Below are positions 5,583-38,832 of a stretch of 48,099 nucleotides of DNA, one piece after another. The position numbers and the translations under genes were made by a program. The first letter of the stretch is position 1; each line of letters opens with the position of its first letter. The notes under the pieces are model-generated. The model worked only from the letters and a program-made list of their open reading frames with translations. It had not been told where the DNA came from and ran no database searches. Source of the stretch: Hyphomicrobium sp. (lineage in GTDB: Bacteria; Pseudomonadota; Alphaproteobacteria; Rhizobiales; Hyphomicrobiaceae); contig PEQZ01000005.1 of NCBI GenBank assembly GCA_002928395.1, positions 1-48,099 of the forward strand, in the 5' to 3' direction.

Positions 5583-6428
5583 ATGTCGAACACCTCCAAG
5601 CGCATCAGTGCTGCGTTCACTCTCTTGGCAGCGGCTGGCGTGCTGCCCTTGGCCGCGGCGGCTCAGGCCGTGACGCTTGCTCCGCACCGCGCCGTCTACG
5701 ACGTGACGCTGGATCGCTCGTCGCCGGCTTCAGGCGTCGCGGAGATGACCGGCCGCATGGTCTATGAGCTCACAGGGAGCGCCTGCGAAGGTTACACCCA
5801 GAACATGCGCTTCGTGACCCGCTCGTCCGGGTCGGAAGGCGCGAGCCGGATCAACGACCTCAGAACGTCGAGCTGGGAGGAGACCGGCGGCAAGCGGCTG
5901 CGCTTCTCCACGACCCAGTACCAGGACGACGTTTTGGCCGAAACCTCTCAGGGTGACGCGGGCCGCGATGGCAAGGGCATCAAAGTCGAACTGTCGAAGC
6001 CTACGGAAAAGGCGCTGAAGTTGCCGGGCGATGTGTATTTCCCGATCCAGCATTCCATCGCCCTGATCGAAGCGGCGCGCGCCAGGAAACTGCAGTTCGC
6101 GGCCGACCTCTACGACGGCTCGGAGAAGGGTGAGAAGGTTTACACCACAAACTCGGTGATCGGCCGGCCCTTCGCGCCAGGTGCTGCAAAAGTGCCGGCG
6201 AGCGTGAAGAATGCGGAGAAGCTCGATGCGTTGCCGTCATGGCCGATTGCGATCAGTTACTTCGAGCCCGGCGCCGAGAAAAAGGATGCGGTGCCTGCCT
6301 ATGAGCTTGGTTTCCGGTTTTTCGACAACGGCGTGAGCACGGGCCTCCGGATCGACTACGGCGAGTTCGCAATCCGGGGCGAAATCAAGGAATTGGTGTT
6401 CCTCGAAGCCTCGAAGTGCGCGCCCTGA
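5583..6428 (+). CDS. eipB: EipB family periplasmic envelope-integrity protein (DUF1849-like)
   Basis: A 281-residue exported protein. Residues 1-28 form a signal peptide ending AAAAQA. The opening APHRAVYDVTLD, then GRMVYELTGSACEGYTQ and RFVT, match the EipB family of Hyphomicrobiales. In Brucella this is a periplasmic beta-spiral protein needed for envelope integrity. Cys68 and Cys279 (KCAP at the C-terminus) are placed like the conserved disulfide pair of that family. The ATG at 5583 is preferred over an in-frame TTG at 5562 because the signal peptide begins there. The stop codon is the first three bases of an 11-bp tandem repeat. Confidence 0.88.
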   Translation: MSNTSKRISAAFTLLAAAGVLPLAAAAQAVTLAPHRAVYDVTLDRSSPASGVAEMTGRMVYELTGSACEGYTQNMRFVTRSSGSEGASRINDLRTSSWEETGGKRLRFSTTQYQDDVLAETSQGDAGRDGKGIKVELSKPTEKALKLPGDVYFPIQHSIALIEAARARKLQFAADLYDGSEKGEKVYTTNSVIGRPFAPGAAKVPASVKNAEKLDALPSWPIAISYFEPGAEKKDAVPAYELGFRFFDNGVSTGLRIDYGEFAIRGEIKELVFLEASKCAP

Positions 6429-6486
6429 CCCTGGCTTGACCCTGGCCTGACCCTGGCCTGACCCTGGCCCTAGCCTGACCTTGGCG
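6426..6486. repeat. 11-bp tandem repeat at the 3' end of eipB
   Basis: Four back-to-back copies of TGACCCTGGCC (first copy with a final T) run from 6426 to 6469. A six-base spacer and a degenerate fifth copy (TGACCTTGGCG) end at 6486. The first copy contains the eipB stop codon, and the repeat fills the gap to the convergent ROK gene stop at 6492. Confidence 0.9.
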
Positions 6487-34545: not shown

Positions 34546-34912
34546 CTTTGAACTCCTGCGAATTGTTCGAGACTTGTGCGAGGCAGCGGCACATCCGCCG
34601 ACTTGGTCCCAATAGACGGCACATTGCGACGTCGTTGTGTCGACTGCATTTTTTGGAATGTCTACTGACAACCAAGCGCCGGATTTCATGATGCGATCTT
34701 GGGATCGAGAGGCTGCGACCGCGTCAAGACGATGACACGCGCAGGGCGGCCAGGGACAGGGCCGGAGTCGTGGGGTTCTCAACCCGACACCGAATCTGAC
34801 GGATTTCCATAAACAACGTTCAGTAACTGTTCAGGGGAACACTGGCATTGTCCGTGGTGTCGATGCGGTCGGGCCGACGAGTTCGCCCGCCGGAGCAACC
34901 AGGGAGGAACCC
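34546..34912. other. Divergent intergenic region
   Basis: It contains no gene that I can support. It must hold promoters for both neighbours and includes the CGTTCAGT/GTTCAG direct-repeat motif at 34817-34834 that recurs before the next paralogue. Confidence 0.5.
34817..34834 (+). promoter_or_regulatory. Direct-repeat motif upstream of helical protein A
   Basis: CGTTCAGTAACTGTTCAG contains two GTTCAG half-sites with an 11-bp period, 79 bp before the gene at 34913. OmpR-family regulators bind half-sites spaced about this way. The same layout occurs at 35312. Confidence 0.45.
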
Positions 34913-35254
34913 ATGACGAAGCTGACGAACTCGCTTACCGCGAAGGTGGCCACGACTGTCGCCGCACTCACGTTGCTTGCTGCGCCACTCAAGGCGGATC
35001 GCTGGCACTACATGATCGACGATCGCCTGGCCGAGCACGAGCGCATCCTGTTCGACGGCGTGAAAAACGGCTCGATCAGTTACGCGGAATTGCAGGACCT
35101 GCGACGCGGCTTCCGTTTCATCGTCAAGCAAGTGAGCAAAGCCAAGCGTGACGGAGAACTGAGTGTGGCCGAGCGGGATCGTATTCGGCGCTTGCAGGAC
35201 CAGTTTGCCACCGCCTTGTTTCAGGAGCGCAACGACGGTCAGCGCCGCTGGTGA
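34913..35254 (+). CDS. Small exported helical protein A
   Basis: A 113-residue protein with a signal peptide (residues about 1-28, VATTVAALTLLAAPLKA). The mature part is almost entirely helical and charged: LAEHERILFDGVKNGSISYA, then ELQDLRRGF, AKRDGELSVAERDRIRRLQ and ERNDGQRRW. It is a paralogue of the protein at 35415 and belongs to a common but uncharacterised group of secreted proteobacterial helical proteins with a G-x-L/I-T/S-x-x-E pattern. AGGGAGG upstream gives a strong start. Confidence 0.8.
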   Translation: MTKLTNSLTAKVATTVAALTLLAAPLKADRWHYMIDDRLAEHERILFDGVKNGSISYAELQDLRRGFRFIVKQVSKAKRDGELSVAERDRIRRLQDQFATALFQERNDGQRRW

Positions 35255-35311
35255 AGTCACGGGCGCCGCTGGCCGCCAAGGGCTACCGGAATGAACGGCA
35301 GATGAAATCAG

Positions 35312-35330
35312 CGTTCAGTTTGAGTTCAAG
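35312..35330 (+). promoter_or_regulatory. Direct-repeat motif upstream of helical protein B
   Basis: CGTTCAGTTTGAGTTCAAG repeats the layout of the 34817 motif: CGTTCAGT, then GTTCA with the same 11-bp period, 85 bp before the gene at 35415. Two paralogues with the same motif at nearly the same distance suggest one regulator. Confidence 0.45.
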
Positions 35331-35414
35331 GCTCTGGTTGCATGTTGGGCTCATCAGATCACGACCGCCTCGCCGATCACCGGTGACGCACAACCGCAAG
35401 AGAGAGATACTTCG

Positions 35415-35768
35415 ATGAAAGCACTCAAAACAACCGTTCTTATTGCTACCCTGACGCTGGTCGCGTCGACCGGTTTTGCCGCCGCCCACTCGACGAAACA
35501 GATCGACCGCAATCAAGCTTTGCAGTTCGAGAAGATCGAGGACGCGCGTCTCCGCGGCGATCTGACCAAGCGCGAGTACCGGCAGCTTCTGGAAGAGCAG
35601 AACCGCATCGCCGACCTCGAGCGGGCGGCCAAGGCCGACGGTCGGGTAACGGGCCGCGAGGTCCGCGAGTTGAAGTCCGCCCAGAGCGAAGCTCGCGAGA
35701 ACATATCGAGCGAGGAACAGGACGGCCAGAAGGCTTGGCTGCGCCGGTTCCTTTACAAGACGCGCTGA
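35415..35768 (+). CDS. Small exported helical protein B
   Basis: A 117-residue paralogue of the preceding protein, with a signal peptide (residues about 1-24, TLTLVASTGFAAA). The mature part reads FEKIEDARLRGDLTKREYRQ, LLEEQNRIADLE, AAKADGRVTGREVRELKSAQ and EEQDGQKAWLRR. Compared with protein A, the pattern G-D/S-L/I-T/S-x-x-E, then AK-x-DG, then E-x-x-DGQ is kept, but most other residues differ. It has its own motif and leader 160 bp after protein A and ends at a strong terminator. Function is unknown; periplasmic stress or metal-related roles are guesses only. Confidence 0.8.
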   Translation: MKALKTTVLIATLTLVASTGFAAAHSTKQIDRNQALQFEKIEDARLRGDLTKREYRQLLEEQNRIADLERAAKADGRVTGREVRELKSAQSEARENISSEEQDGQKAWLRRFLYKTR

Positions 35769-35794: not shown

Positions 35795-35821
35795 AGGCCG
35801 TCCTGGAAGGGCGGCCTTTTT
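35795..35821 (+). terminator. Intrinsic terminator after helical protein B
   Basis: AGGCCGTCC pairs with GGGCGGCCT (one wobble) around a short TGGAA loop and is followed by a T tract. It lies 27 bp after the stop. Confidence 0.75.
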
Positions 35822-35885: not shown

Positions 35886-37463
35886 TCAGAGTGTTGACGA
35901 GGCTTCCGGACAGATTTCCTTGGCGCGAACCATCGCCAGATCGCGGTTCCCGAACTCTCCATCGACGACGCCACGGGGGGCGCGGGTCCGAATAAAGTTG
36001 TTCGTCATGAATTGCTCGAAACCCGGGACTACCGACAGCACGATCAACTCGACCGCGACAGACGAAGACGAGCGGATCAGGACGGTTTGCGTGCCGCCAT
36101 AACTCGCCATCAGAATGCGGCAACTGCCATGGGCGTTCTTGGCCTCGGCGACGACCTGGGCGGCTGCGAAGGGTGCTGCCGCCGCCGCGAACGCAATCGT
36201 CGCGCCTTGCTGCAGAGCCTCAGGCTGCACGGGGGGGCGCGGCTCGGGAGGCGAGGGCTTGGAGATCAACGCAGTAGGGGATGACGGACCGATGCCAATC
36301 GGTCCGACCACCGACTTTGACGGTTGCGCTGAGGTGCTGGCCGCGACGGCGGCCTCGATGCGGGCATCGCCGGCTGCTTGAGCCTGGGGCCTCGGGCCAT
36401 TGAACGGTTCATTGAACGGTTCCGGGCGCACGATCCGTCGTGGCGGCATGTCTCCGTCGACGGCGCGTGTCCATACGGTCGTGACGGCAGATCCCGGTGC
36501 TGGCGTTGGGGCTGCCGCTTTCCGCGCCGCGGGATTGCCAACGATTGGGTCGGCTGCGGCAAGAGGCGCGATCGCCGTGCGCACCAGCCGAGGCTCGCCG
36601 CCGAGAGCTGAGCGTGGTGCCGTATTCGGACCTGTCGTGGCGTCGATCGCCGCCCGGCCCGCACAATGGCCTTGCCGATAACGCTCGGCCACCCCTTCGA
36701 TCGAGCGGCCGTACTTCGGGTCGACAGCCCAACGTCGTGCAAGATCAGCGAAGCGGACGGGCCGCCGAAGTTTCGAGGAGGCGGAAACGATGTCGTCCTG
36801 CTTCAATTGCGTGCGCGCACCGACAGGGTTTGGCACCCGTTCGCCGGAATAGGCGACGAGGTGCTGGATCTGGGCGAGCACGCCGGTCGAAATACTTGGA
36901 TAACTGTCGCCGGGTACGCCGCCACCGGTGGTTCCGAGGCCGGCGAAGTTGTTCTGGCTCGGCCGCACATCGCCCGTGAAGGTGAGGTTTCCTGTCTCGA
37001 TCAACATTTGGAAGAAGGCGTAGTCCCAGCGGACGTTCCAGCGCTCGCCGTGGGTCTTGTATAGTTTGGCCAAATCCTTGTAGCGCGGGTCGAGCCGGCC
37101 GTTACTTTCTTGCAGGAACGCCATCAGCCGATCGGGCGTGACACATTGCGGGACCGCGTTGGCGCTATTCGTGCGGATCTCGGTTGCGTCCGCGCTTGGT
37201 CCGGCAAGCACGAGGCCTGCGACCACGACTGCGACTGCCTGCAGGAGCGCGGCCAACGGGCGCGGAATCCGCCGCGGCAACGCCAAACGGTGCGGCCACC
37301 GCCGCGCCAACGCCAACGGGTGCGGCCACCGCCGCGCCAACGCCAACGGGTGCGGCCACCGCCGCGCCAACGCCAACGGGTGCGGCCACCGCCGCGCCAA
37401 CGCCAAATGGTGCGGCCTCCGCCGCTGGGGCGAATGCCGACCACATTGGGCCACGACGATCAT
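35886..37463 (-). CDS. Exported glucosaminidase-domain protein, paralogue 2
   Basis: A protein of up to 525 residues with a peptidoglycan glucosaminidase (PF01832-like) domain: CVTPDRLMAFLQESNGR, then VRWDYAFFQMLIETGNLTFT (with the likely catalytic Glu in LIETG) and PSQNNFAGLGTTGGG. A hydrophobic export segment (LAALLQAVAVVVAGLVLAG) precedes it. A Pro/Ala-rich linker leads to a C-terminal domain bounded by cysteines (GSCRILMASYGGTQTVLIRS ... EICPEA). The start is uncertain. The ATG at 37463 has GGAG upstream, but translation from there passes through a 30-bp tandem repeat encoding RRWPHPLALA copies. A TTG after the repeat is an alternative. It lies 67 bp after its paralogue. Confidence 0.82.
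   Translation of the reverse strand: MIVVAQCGRHSPQRRRPHHLALARRWPHPLALARRWPHPLALARRWPHPLALARRWPHRLALPRRIPRPLAALLQAVAVVVAGLVLAGPSADATEIRTNSANAVPQCVTPDRLMAFLQESNGRLDPRYKDLAKLYKTHGERWNVRWDYAFFQMLIETGNLTFTGDVRPSQNNFAGLGTTGGGVPGDSYPSISTGVLAQIQHLVAYSGERVPNPVGARTQLKQDDIVSASSKLRRPVRFADLARRWAVDPKYGRSIEGVAERYRQGHCAGRAAIDATTGPNTAPRSALGGEPRLVRTAIAPLAAADPIVGNPAARKAAAPTPAPGSAVTTVWTRAVDGDMPPRRIVRPEPFNEPFNGPRPQAQAAGDARIEAAVAASTSAQPSKSVVGPIGIGPSSPTALISKPSPPEPRPPVQPEALQQGATIAFAAAAAPFAAAQVVAEAKNAHGSCRILMASYGGTQTVLIRSSSSVAVELIVLSVVPGFEQFMTNNFIRTRAPRGVVDGEFGNRDLAMVRAKEICPEASSTL
37291..37410. repeat. 30-bp tandem repeat at the 5' end of the second glucosaminidase gene
   Basis: Four units of 30 bp beginning TGCGGCCACCGCCGCGCCAA: three identical and a fourth with small changes. 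Degenerate partial units flank the array on both sides (about 37271-37290 and 37411-37430). Because 30 is divisible by three, copy-number changes would keep the reading frame. Confidence 0.92.
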
Positions 37464-37530
37464 GGGGGGCTCCGGGGACGCGATACGGAAACGGACGGGC
37501 GTTTCGTGGGCGGTGTCGGAAGTCTCGCGC

Positions 37531-38832
37531 TCAGCCTTCGGGGCAGAGTTCGAACGCCTTGTCCAGGGCCTGGGTCGAACTGCCGTACTCGCCGACTGTT
37601 TGCCCACCTCTGGCATAAGCCGCGATGAAGGCTTCGGCCTCGCGCGCTTCGGCACCCTCGTTGACGTCGAGGACCGTGTAGTTGGTCTCTGGGCCACTGC
37701 TGGCTTTGATGATGACCGCCTTGGCGCCGCCGTAACTCGCCTGCCAGACCCGGCACCCCGTTGGGCCTCCCGGCTGAGGCGTAACGGCCGCGGTCGCCGG
37801 AGGTTTGCCGTTGGCCGGGACGGCGGCGGATTTGGTGTCCTTGCCCTTGGATTTTGCTGCGGGGTCCTTGTCCACGGCCGGCTTGGTATCGCGCGCTGGC
37901 TTGTTTGTCTGGGCCAGCGGTTCGATGGCGCTTGCTCCGATGTCTGCCTTATCCGATTTCTCGGTCTCGCCAGCCTCTTTCGGTGCGTTCAGGATGGTGA
38001 TGGCGGGCTGCGGCTTGGCTGCCGCCGCAAGGCCAGCTGCGCCCAGGCCGGAGCGGCTGCCTTCGCCACTAGCGCGCGCTTCGCTCACCGCCTGGCGGGC
38101 GAGTTCAGTGCCGGAAATCCGTTCGTTGTCCTCGACGGATTTGGCGGTCGGAGCGACGGCTGCAACCTTGACGACGCCACCCGCGCCGCGGGCTTCCTGC
38201 ACGAGTTCGGGCCGTGGATCGTCACCCTTGCAGGCGCCGTTGGCAAAGGCTTCAGCGACCGAGGCGATGTCGTCGGAGTAGCGGCGATCCTTGGGCGACC
38301 ACTTCCGCGTAAGGTGCGCGAACGTCATCGGCCCCTTGATGCTCTTCTGCCAGGAGGTGAGAATGCCCCACTCCTGCACCTTGCGGGTCCGCTCGGCCGT
38401 TGGATTGTCGAGCTTGGCGCCCGAGTACATCAGCACGTGCTCGAGGTGCGCTTGCGCTCCGGTCGAGATGTCCTTGAAGCTCTCCCCCGGTTCGCCGCCG
38501 CCGGTCGCGCCGAGCCCCGCGAAATTGTTCTGCTTGGGTTTGACGTCGCCCGTGAAGCCGAGGTTTCCAGTTTCGACCAGCATCTGGAAAAAGGCATAGT
38601 CCCAACGGATGCCGAGCGCCTCGCCATGCCGCATGTATTCGGTCGCGAGGCCATCGAACTGCGATTGGAGCTTGGTATTGCGCGCCTTCACGAAGGCCAT
38701 CAAGCGGCCGGGGGTGACGCAGGCTGGGACGGCGTTGTCCTTACTGGCCTTGATCGCAGGCAATTCGGCGGCGGCGGCCGGAAACGAAGCGACGAGTGTG
38801 AATGCGGCGAAGGATGCGGCGCGATAAAGCAT
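37531..38832 (-). CDS. Exported glucosaminidase-domain protein, paralogue 1
   Basis: A 433-residue exported protein with a signal peptide (residues about 1-22, AASFAAFTLVASFPAAAA). The glucosaminidase-type domain reads CVTPGRLMAFVKARNTK, IRWDYAFFQMLVETGNLGFT, KQNNFAGLGATGGGEPGESF and ISTGAQAHLEHVLMYSGAKL. The likely catalytic Glu is in LVETG. After an Ala/Pro/Lys-rich linker comes a cysteine-bounded C-terminal domain (TGCRVWQASYGGAKAVIIKA ... FELCPEG) shared with the downstream paralogue. The enzyme would cut glycan strands of peptidoglycan. It probably forms an operon with the second copy. Confidence 0.87.
   Translation of the reverse strand: MLYRAASFAAFTLVASFPAAAAELPAIKASKDNAVPACVTPGRLMAFVKARNTKLQSQFDGLATEYMRHGEALGIRWDYAFFQMLVETGNLGFTGDVKPKQNNFAGLGATGGGEPGESFKDISTGAQAHLEHVLMYSGAKLDNPTAERTRKVQEWGILTSWQKSIKGPMTFAHLTRKWSPKDRRYSDDIASVAEAFANGACKGDDPRPELVQEARGAGGVVKVAAVAPTAKSVEDNERISGTELARQAVSEARASGEGSRSGLGAAGLAAAAKPQPAITILNAPKEAGETEKSDKADIGASAIEPLAQTNKPARDTKPAVDKDPAAKSKGKDTKSAAVPANGKPPATAAVTPQPGGPTGCRVWQASYGGAKAVIIKASSGPETNYTVLDVNEGAEAREAEAFIAAYARGGQTVGEYGSSTQALDKAFELCPEG

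Follow-up and report, generated by a model that had tools for sequence, protein, structure and literature searches.

The stretch of DNA analysed in this study, hereafter the window, comprises 48,099 nucleotides and represents contig 5 of a 2.32-Mb metagenome-assembled genome (MAG; 76% complete) of Hyphomicrobium sp. It contains, in tandem on the forward strand, the genes of the secreted helical proteins P1 (113 aa; 34913-35254) and P2 (117 aa; 35415-35768), both recognised as open reading frames with homologues, their signal peptides being assigned by eye. The P2 gene is followed by a terminator-like hairpin with a T run (35795-35821, forward strand; seen by eye), and the divergent neighbour of P1 (34156-34542, reverse strand) encodes a secreted DUF2541 protein (PF10807). 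Beside the secreted pair, on the reverse strand at 35889-38832, there are two adjacent Glucosaminidase-domain genes (PF01832), the first with a repetitive N-terminal stretch.

Each of the two genes is preceded by the direct repeat GTTCAG-N5-GTTCA on the forward strand—box 1 with the letters GTTCAGTAACTGTTCA (34818-34833) and box 2 with the letters GTTCAGTTTGAGTTCA (35313-35328)—identified by the motif scan and seen in the promoter logo described below. These are the only two exact copies of GTTCA-N6-GTTCA found in a scan of the window. The box corresponds to TTCA-N7-TTCA with an 11-bp period, and the sole long stretch common to the upstream regions of P1 and P2 is CGTTCAGT plus GTTCA. The initial annotation of this DNA had described two tandem secreted helical paralogues with the same repeat in front of each, which agrees with the present results; as to the distances of 79 and 85 bp it had given, the gap between the box and the ATG is 79 bp for P1 (34913), but 86 bp for P2 (35415). 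A -10-like element, found by direct reading and located at the place of the YAnnnT element of the logo, lies 12 nt past each box, CATTGT for P1 (34846-34851) and CATGTT for P2 (35341-35346), both on the forward strand. On the upstream side, box 2 is accompanied by an inverted half on the reverse strand (35292-35307; TGAACGGCAGATGAAA as written on the forward strand; pattern scan and logo), and the P1 box by a degenerate one (34797-34812, reverse strand), reading TGACG, 21 bp upstream, instead of the TGAAC expected from the consensus.

P1 and P2 are, as judged by their sequences, remote paralogues. A direct alignment yields 25% identity (E=0.001), and P1 does not appear among the own-genome matches of a P2 query at E≤0.001; their kinship follows from the intermediates G001:C11:74250 and G012:C5, since both match P1 (1.6e-9 and 1.6e-10) as well as P2 (2.4e-12 and 1.6e-15). 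With the own genome counted, P2 was matched in 26 and P1 in 15 of the 60 genomes searched. The scan of named organisms gave five loci with P2 relatives, four from Hyphomicrobium/Hyphomicrobiaceae MAGs and one labelled only as Proteobacteria. With the family model containing both proteins (A4) and a limit of E≤1e-4, matches were obtained in 12 of the 249 genomes of the order, seven of which belong to one family (f1).

Concerning the fold, the AlphaFold model of P2 (pLDDT 76.8) predicts a three-helix bundle, with helices at residues 21-47, 52-73 and 80-102 and a short one at 104-116. Neither protein had a Pfam or NCBIfam match over the cut-off, and Foldseek gave no match at E≤0.001, the best one (0.27) being to designed bundles. 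Since VIA Z values of up to 11.4 fit chance for helical bundles, no structural relative is claimed. The conserved turns G.LT..E and DG.VT..E resemble, by eye, degenerate EF-hand or TerB loops; these hints were judged weak and, by eye, no calcium ligands are present at the first and third loop positions.

The gene pair is subject to turnover. At the locus of a close relative (L183), about 485 bp are gone (window 34756-35239 versus 2836-2840 in L183), i.e. box 1 and most of P1, box 2 and P2 being kept and the flanks remaining syntenic with 93% and 91% identity; a deletion in this relative is favoured, because the last P1 codons seem, by eye, to survive at the junction. Moreover, a P1-like gene is located downstream of the P2 orthologue in two other genomes (G001 and G002), so that the pair does not represent one inherited unit.

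The upstream regions were read for 35 homologous genes, both window genes included, out of 37 distinct ones listed (G020:C6:22503 and G008:C247 were left out). At least nine of the ten motif letters occur within 350 bp upstream of 31 of these 35 homologues, 19 of the sites being perfect, and the four without the motif are L029, L032, L033 and L055; the same count in 300 dinucleotide shuffles had a mean of 0.35 and a maximum of 3. All 12 imperfect sites deviate solely at the first G, with A found there in 10 of them. A further nine matches of the A4 family were read upstream, and at least nine motif letters were present in only two. In the own MAG, the exact GTTCA-N6-GTTCA occurs 7 times as compared with once for the reversed control, and the relaxed RTTCA-N6-RTTCA 16 times, again with one for the control. 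It should be pointed out that the window alone, if up to two mismatches are allowed, contains 27 sites against 28.3 expected, i.e. no excess over chance.

The 31 promoters, once aligned, define a consensus of three parts: A-TGAAC-g-N5-TGA; [GA]TTCAG-N3-G-N-GTTCA-a, located 21 bp past the first letter of TGAAC; and, after 12 nt, YAnnnT. As the 31 sites were selected by their motif score, the constancy of the TTCA letters is partly due to that selection; neither the upstream half nor the -10 element played a part in it, and in the former T, G, A and A are each found in 30 and C in 26 of the 31 sequences, while in the latter Y and A are present in all 31 and the last T in 27. When the complete four-half-site box was searched for in 100 relatives, 45 of them gave a total of 61 matches (60 places, one being palindromic), and the reversed pattern gave none. 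The direct repeat is located at approximately -40 to -25, its half-sites one helical turn apart, and it is at such a position that activators of the OmpR/PhoB type replace the -35 element.

The box is not due to chance. It had been proposed that a promoter motif retained while the proteins diverged indicates shared control of P1 and P2, and that the idea would fall if the motif were absent before orthologues or common at random positions. Neither was observed, the box being present before 31 of the 35 homologues examined and rare elsewhere (7 versus 1 and 16 versus 1 in the own MAG, 61 versus 0 in the 100 relatives), and the shared control of the two genes is practically certain.

As to the other genes behind the box, 43 loci were read among the places with four-half-site matches. 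In the first 30, the box precedes members of the P1/P2 family in 16 cases, a conserved non-coding stretch in nine, and something else or nothing clear in five. The same non-coding stretch, described below as a small RNA (sRNA), follows in nine of the 13 further places; the rest have mostly secreted proteins, among them an orthologous pair shared by the own genome (C30) and G003, one locus (L108) being ambiguous. The genome-wide scan with inspection of the downstream genes, recommended at the outset, was also performed for the 16 relaxed sites of the own genome, and many of the genes read as secreted. With product names assigned by reading the translations, the downstream genes in this genome are P1 and P2, those of five more proteins that appear secreted (L218, L004, L222, L223 and L225), of a DsbA-like protein (L224) and of a cytochrome c (L005), a regulator operon (L088/L220), the sRNA (C43, with both halves) and a ChvI-like regulator (L221). 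Doubtful sites are those at a kinase-like gene (L219) and in two mobile-element contigs carrying a relaxase and an integrase (L007 and L008), all three of which were judged chance-like. These two contigs share, at position 1501 of both L007 and L008, the near-identical sequence GTTCACGC[AT]GGGTTCACGCAGGAA, perhaps a mobile-element end and not a site for a regulator.

The sRNA candidate of the own genome, about 70 nt long, is located at G000:C43:1759-1827 on the reverse strand, near L006/L215, and was recognised by its conservation, a covariance model and the box; others are found at L059-L062, L065, L066, L072, L079, L082, L097-L105 and L188-L217. It lies 23-25 nt past the box and has the layout ACCCTG, CTTCCCCGGCGTGATCC and a hairpin with CAGGGT in its loop, thereby combining a terminator hairpin, a pseudoknot between the 5' end and the loop, and the conserved stretch CTTCCCCGGCGT. 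In an alignment of 16 of 18 sequences (L062 and L101 left out), the hairpin and pseudoknot together show 97.2% paired cells and double changes in 12 of 18 pairs, values that none of 500 shuffles reached, the structure having been drawn from the same sequences as those used for counting its pairs. The pseudoknot itself is supported by two pairs, because five of the seven pairs of its helix are invariant. At E≤0.001, the covariance model of the hairpin had matches, several of them weak, in 52 of 100 genomes. At least nine motif letters are present at a fixed distance in 24 of 30 sRNA loci; three score seven and one scores eight, and for the remaining two, of which one belongs to the own genome and reads TGAACTGGGCATGAACGGCGTATTCAAGCGGTATTCA, the script set no anchor. 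Site L006 of the own genome, which precedes an H-NS gene, is one half of the sRNA's box. At some of the loci, the sRNA is flanked by an HlyD-type adaptor or H-NS gene and, on its opposite side, by sodB or a SOUL-domain gene.

At the Rfam gathering threshold, eight sources (the window and seven loci, five of them with an sRNA of another genome) gave no match to the sRNA, nor did a permissive Rfam scan of one locus, which returned one chance-level match elsewhere. A literature search over titles and the beginnings of abstracts, with subscription papers largely outside it, retrieved nothing on this regulon of Hyphomicrobiaceae or on the sRNA. The pseudoknotted sRNA of about 70 nt is apparently undescribed so far.

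The own genome has nine regulators with the Trans_reg_C domain, and only one of their loci (L088; G000:C12:24930-26074, reverse strand) contains at least nine of the ten motif letters. Here the box lies 46 bp before the gene of a FeuN-like secreted protein of 100 aa, followed by the gene of an OmpR-family regulator and that of a PhoQ-like kinase. The best NCBIfam matches, both below their cut-offs, are PhoQ for the kinase (108.7 bits, cut-off 497) and PmrA for the regulator. A survey of 30 genomes chosen across the order found the regulator in all of them with 67-100% identity, all other listed matches having at most 58%; when the orthologues were searched against the own-genome regulators, L088 came first in all 28 usable cases (two of the 30 loci, L153 and L162, were unusable). 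A homologue of the own kinase lies 3' of the regulator in all 30 genomes, a weak one in L162. With at least nine letters, or eight with both TTCA, required in the two-half form, a box is present upstream of the regulator within 1.5 kb in 26 of the 30 genomes and within 600 bp in 24, the 1.5-kb count in 40 shuffles of these stretches having a mean of 2.4 and a maximum of 6. The four regulator loci without a box within 1.5 kb are those of G023, G063, G028 and G012, all four genomes having boxes before target genes. Between the box and the regulator, a small secreted open reading frame was seen by eye in 23 of the 30 loci; at L144, L145 and L163 the box is present, but no FeuN-like gene was detected in that interval. 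The own-genome FeuN-like protein had no Pfam match at E≤0.01.

These features recall the FeuN-FeuP-FeuQ system of Sinorhizobium meliloti. According to the accessible part of the published work, Motif 3, TTCA-N7-TTCA, precedes 12 genes there, of which five depend on FeuP, and is found in front of feuN as well; it has been proposed as the site of the response regulator FeuP, which has ndvA as a target and is important for symbiosis (PMC3616915). FeuN, again according to the accessible text, is located in the periplasm and restrains FeuQ, to which it binds, the FeuPQ regulon being usually activated under osmotic stress and its hyperactivation being harmful to S. meliloti (PMC12714254). The half-site and its spacing are identical in both organisms, the motif stands before the operon in both, and a small gene is linked to those of the regulator and the kinase. 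Features of the FeuP regulon are accordingly found at two levels, as TTCA-N7-TTCA upstream of both window genes and as the linkage of FeuN-like, regulator and kinase genes behind a box at L088. On the other hand, many of the targets found here are the secreted helical family and the sRNA, and most of the homologue promoters have four half-sites with the inverted upstream pair, an arrangement unmentioned in the accessible text on S. meliloti (PMC3616915).

The ndvA/chvA gene may provide a further link. Two relatives of one family (G057 and G240, family f23), with chvA scores of 1073 and 1069 bits, carry a box of nine matching letters, GTTAATCGCCGGTTCA, 57-59 bp before the start of the match, GTTAA replacing the first GTTCA in both. 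They represent two of the nine chvA loci of this family, the other seven (six genomes of g85 and one of 1.5 Mb) being without the box. Among the other 21 chvA-like loci scanned, there was one match of nine letters (L127), located on the other strand. A difference from S. meliloti is that the own genome, a 76% complete MAG, has no chvA over the family cut-off. From the operon layout, the motif and the ndvA link, the regulator of the L088 type may be regarded as the putative orthologue of FeuP. A small-protein partner, MgrB, is known also from the enterobacterial PhoP-PhoQ-MgrB system, the half-site and targets of which are other than those found here. The likeness to that system consists in the PhoQ match of the L088 kinase and in a small protein restraining the kinase, as reported for FeuN in the accessible text (PMC12714254); a difference is that, out of six FeuN-like proteins from other genomes, three have a PepSY match, which exceeds the cut-off in one, equals it in another and is weak in the third.

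The earlier suggestion of an OmpR-type regulator is hence supported by a candidate of that family with the motif at its own operon and by the agreement of the box with the published candidate FeuP motif. It is quite likely, to judge from the sequences compared, that P1 and P2 are under FeuP-type control within a regulon of the FeuN-FeuP-FeuQ type in Hyphomicrobiaceae, with the L088-type regulator as the protein that would bind the box. Envelope stress, which had been surmised as the signal, is plausible in view of the secreted targets and the literature on FeuPQ.

An alternative is that the box is bound by another OmpR-family regulator, either ChvI or one left unassembled in the 76% complete MAG. 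The period and position would suit any OmpR-family activator, and a weak box, ATTCAAGTGCTATTCA (G000:C18:1412-1427, reverse strand), is found some 95 bp in front of the ChvI-like gene at L221; it is, however, the operon of the L088 type that is boxed in 26 of the 30 genomes chosen across the order. The Caulobacter ChvI and UzcR regulons likewise belong to alphaproteobacterial envelope two-component systems, and the promoter of chvR, an sRNA, is given as a target of both regulators in the literature accessible in part, but their DNA motifs differ from the box. The ChvI motif is given in the accessible texts as GCC-N8-GCC for S. meliloti and as TTGC-N3-GCAA for Caulobacter (PMC9731502), and that of UzcR as CATTAC-N6-TTAA; most UzcR targets are proteins that carry secretion signals or have transmembrane segments (PMC8963506). 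By eye, neither ChvI motif is formed by the conserved columns of the 31-promoter logo. A different OmpR-family regulator is therefore considered rather unlikely. As the weak box precedes the ChvI-like regulator, cross-regulation could occur, and a link between the FeuP-type and ChvI-like envelope systems is possible.

The remaining alternatives are less probable still. The repeats might be LexA boxes of the SOS response, the alphaproteobacterial LexA box being GTTC-N7-GTTC, likewise a direct repeat with an 11-bp period that the exact copies in the window contain. The 12 imperfect sites among the 31, however, vary at the first G (10 with A), which would break GTTC, and the targets read are envelope proteins and the sRNA, not repair genes. 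In the comparison of SOS genes, which covered recA only, exact SOS-type repeats were found in three of 11 relatives about 180 bp before the match, in the form GAACA-N6-GAAC, i.e. GTTC-N6-TGTTC without the second TTCA; the other eight loci had none near the gene, and L170 has TTCA-N7-TTCA 443 bp before the match. By its recA boxes, site letters and target genes, LexA was judged very unlikely. Equally improbable is that the box forms part of a promoter of an alternative sigma factor rather than an activator site: the fixed distance to the -10 element would fit, but the 11-bp repeats with the inverted upstream copy cover much more than a -35 element would, and the -10 sequence belongs to the YAnnnT type. 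The least probable explanation, a leftover of a recent tandem duplication, has in its favour that the genes are adjacent paralogues, and against it the 25% protein identity, the diverged flanks around the box, the same box before unrelated genes and the sRNA, and the lack of a conserved P1-P2 pair, P1 being absent from L183.

Under FeuP-type control, P1 and P2 would be separate members of one regulon. The PhoQ-like kinase FeuQ, held back by the small periplasmic FeuN, would sense an envelope or osmotic change and phosphorylate the OmpR-family regulator FeuP, which would bind in tandem to the TTCA repeats in the place of the -35 element and recruit RNA polymerase to the YAnnnT element, the inverted upstream pair adding a second site at most promoters. 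The induced proteins would go to the periplasm and, judging from their export and co-regulation, are probably small helical envelope-binding factors. P1 and P2 probably belong to one stress-response set with the sRNA. The fuller picture, on balance somewhat probable, is that of a full FeuNPQ regulon of envelope stress divided into two arms—secreted three-helix proteins of a rapidly evolving family, gained and lost as box-plus-gene cassettes, and the sRNA of about 70 nt, its 5' ACCCUG paired with the terminator loop and the conserved CUUCCCCGGCGU as its seed, which would silence mRNAs—both read from a four-half-site promoter that would accommodate two FeuP dimers.

An uncharacterised secreted pair would thereby become part of a definable regulon, and the motif reported before 12 genes of S. 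meliloti is extended to a second family within the order, together with a promoter geometry that can be tested. The regulon would also gain a conserved sRNA arm, with no Rfam match in the loci scanned. Because FeuP matters in symbiosis and its hyperactivation harms S. meliloti, a map of FeuP targets across the order would make its function testable outside rhizobia. Finally, elsewhere in the window, on the reverse strand at 6426-6463, there are four tandem GGTCA units with an 11-bp period, forming three overlapping pairs.
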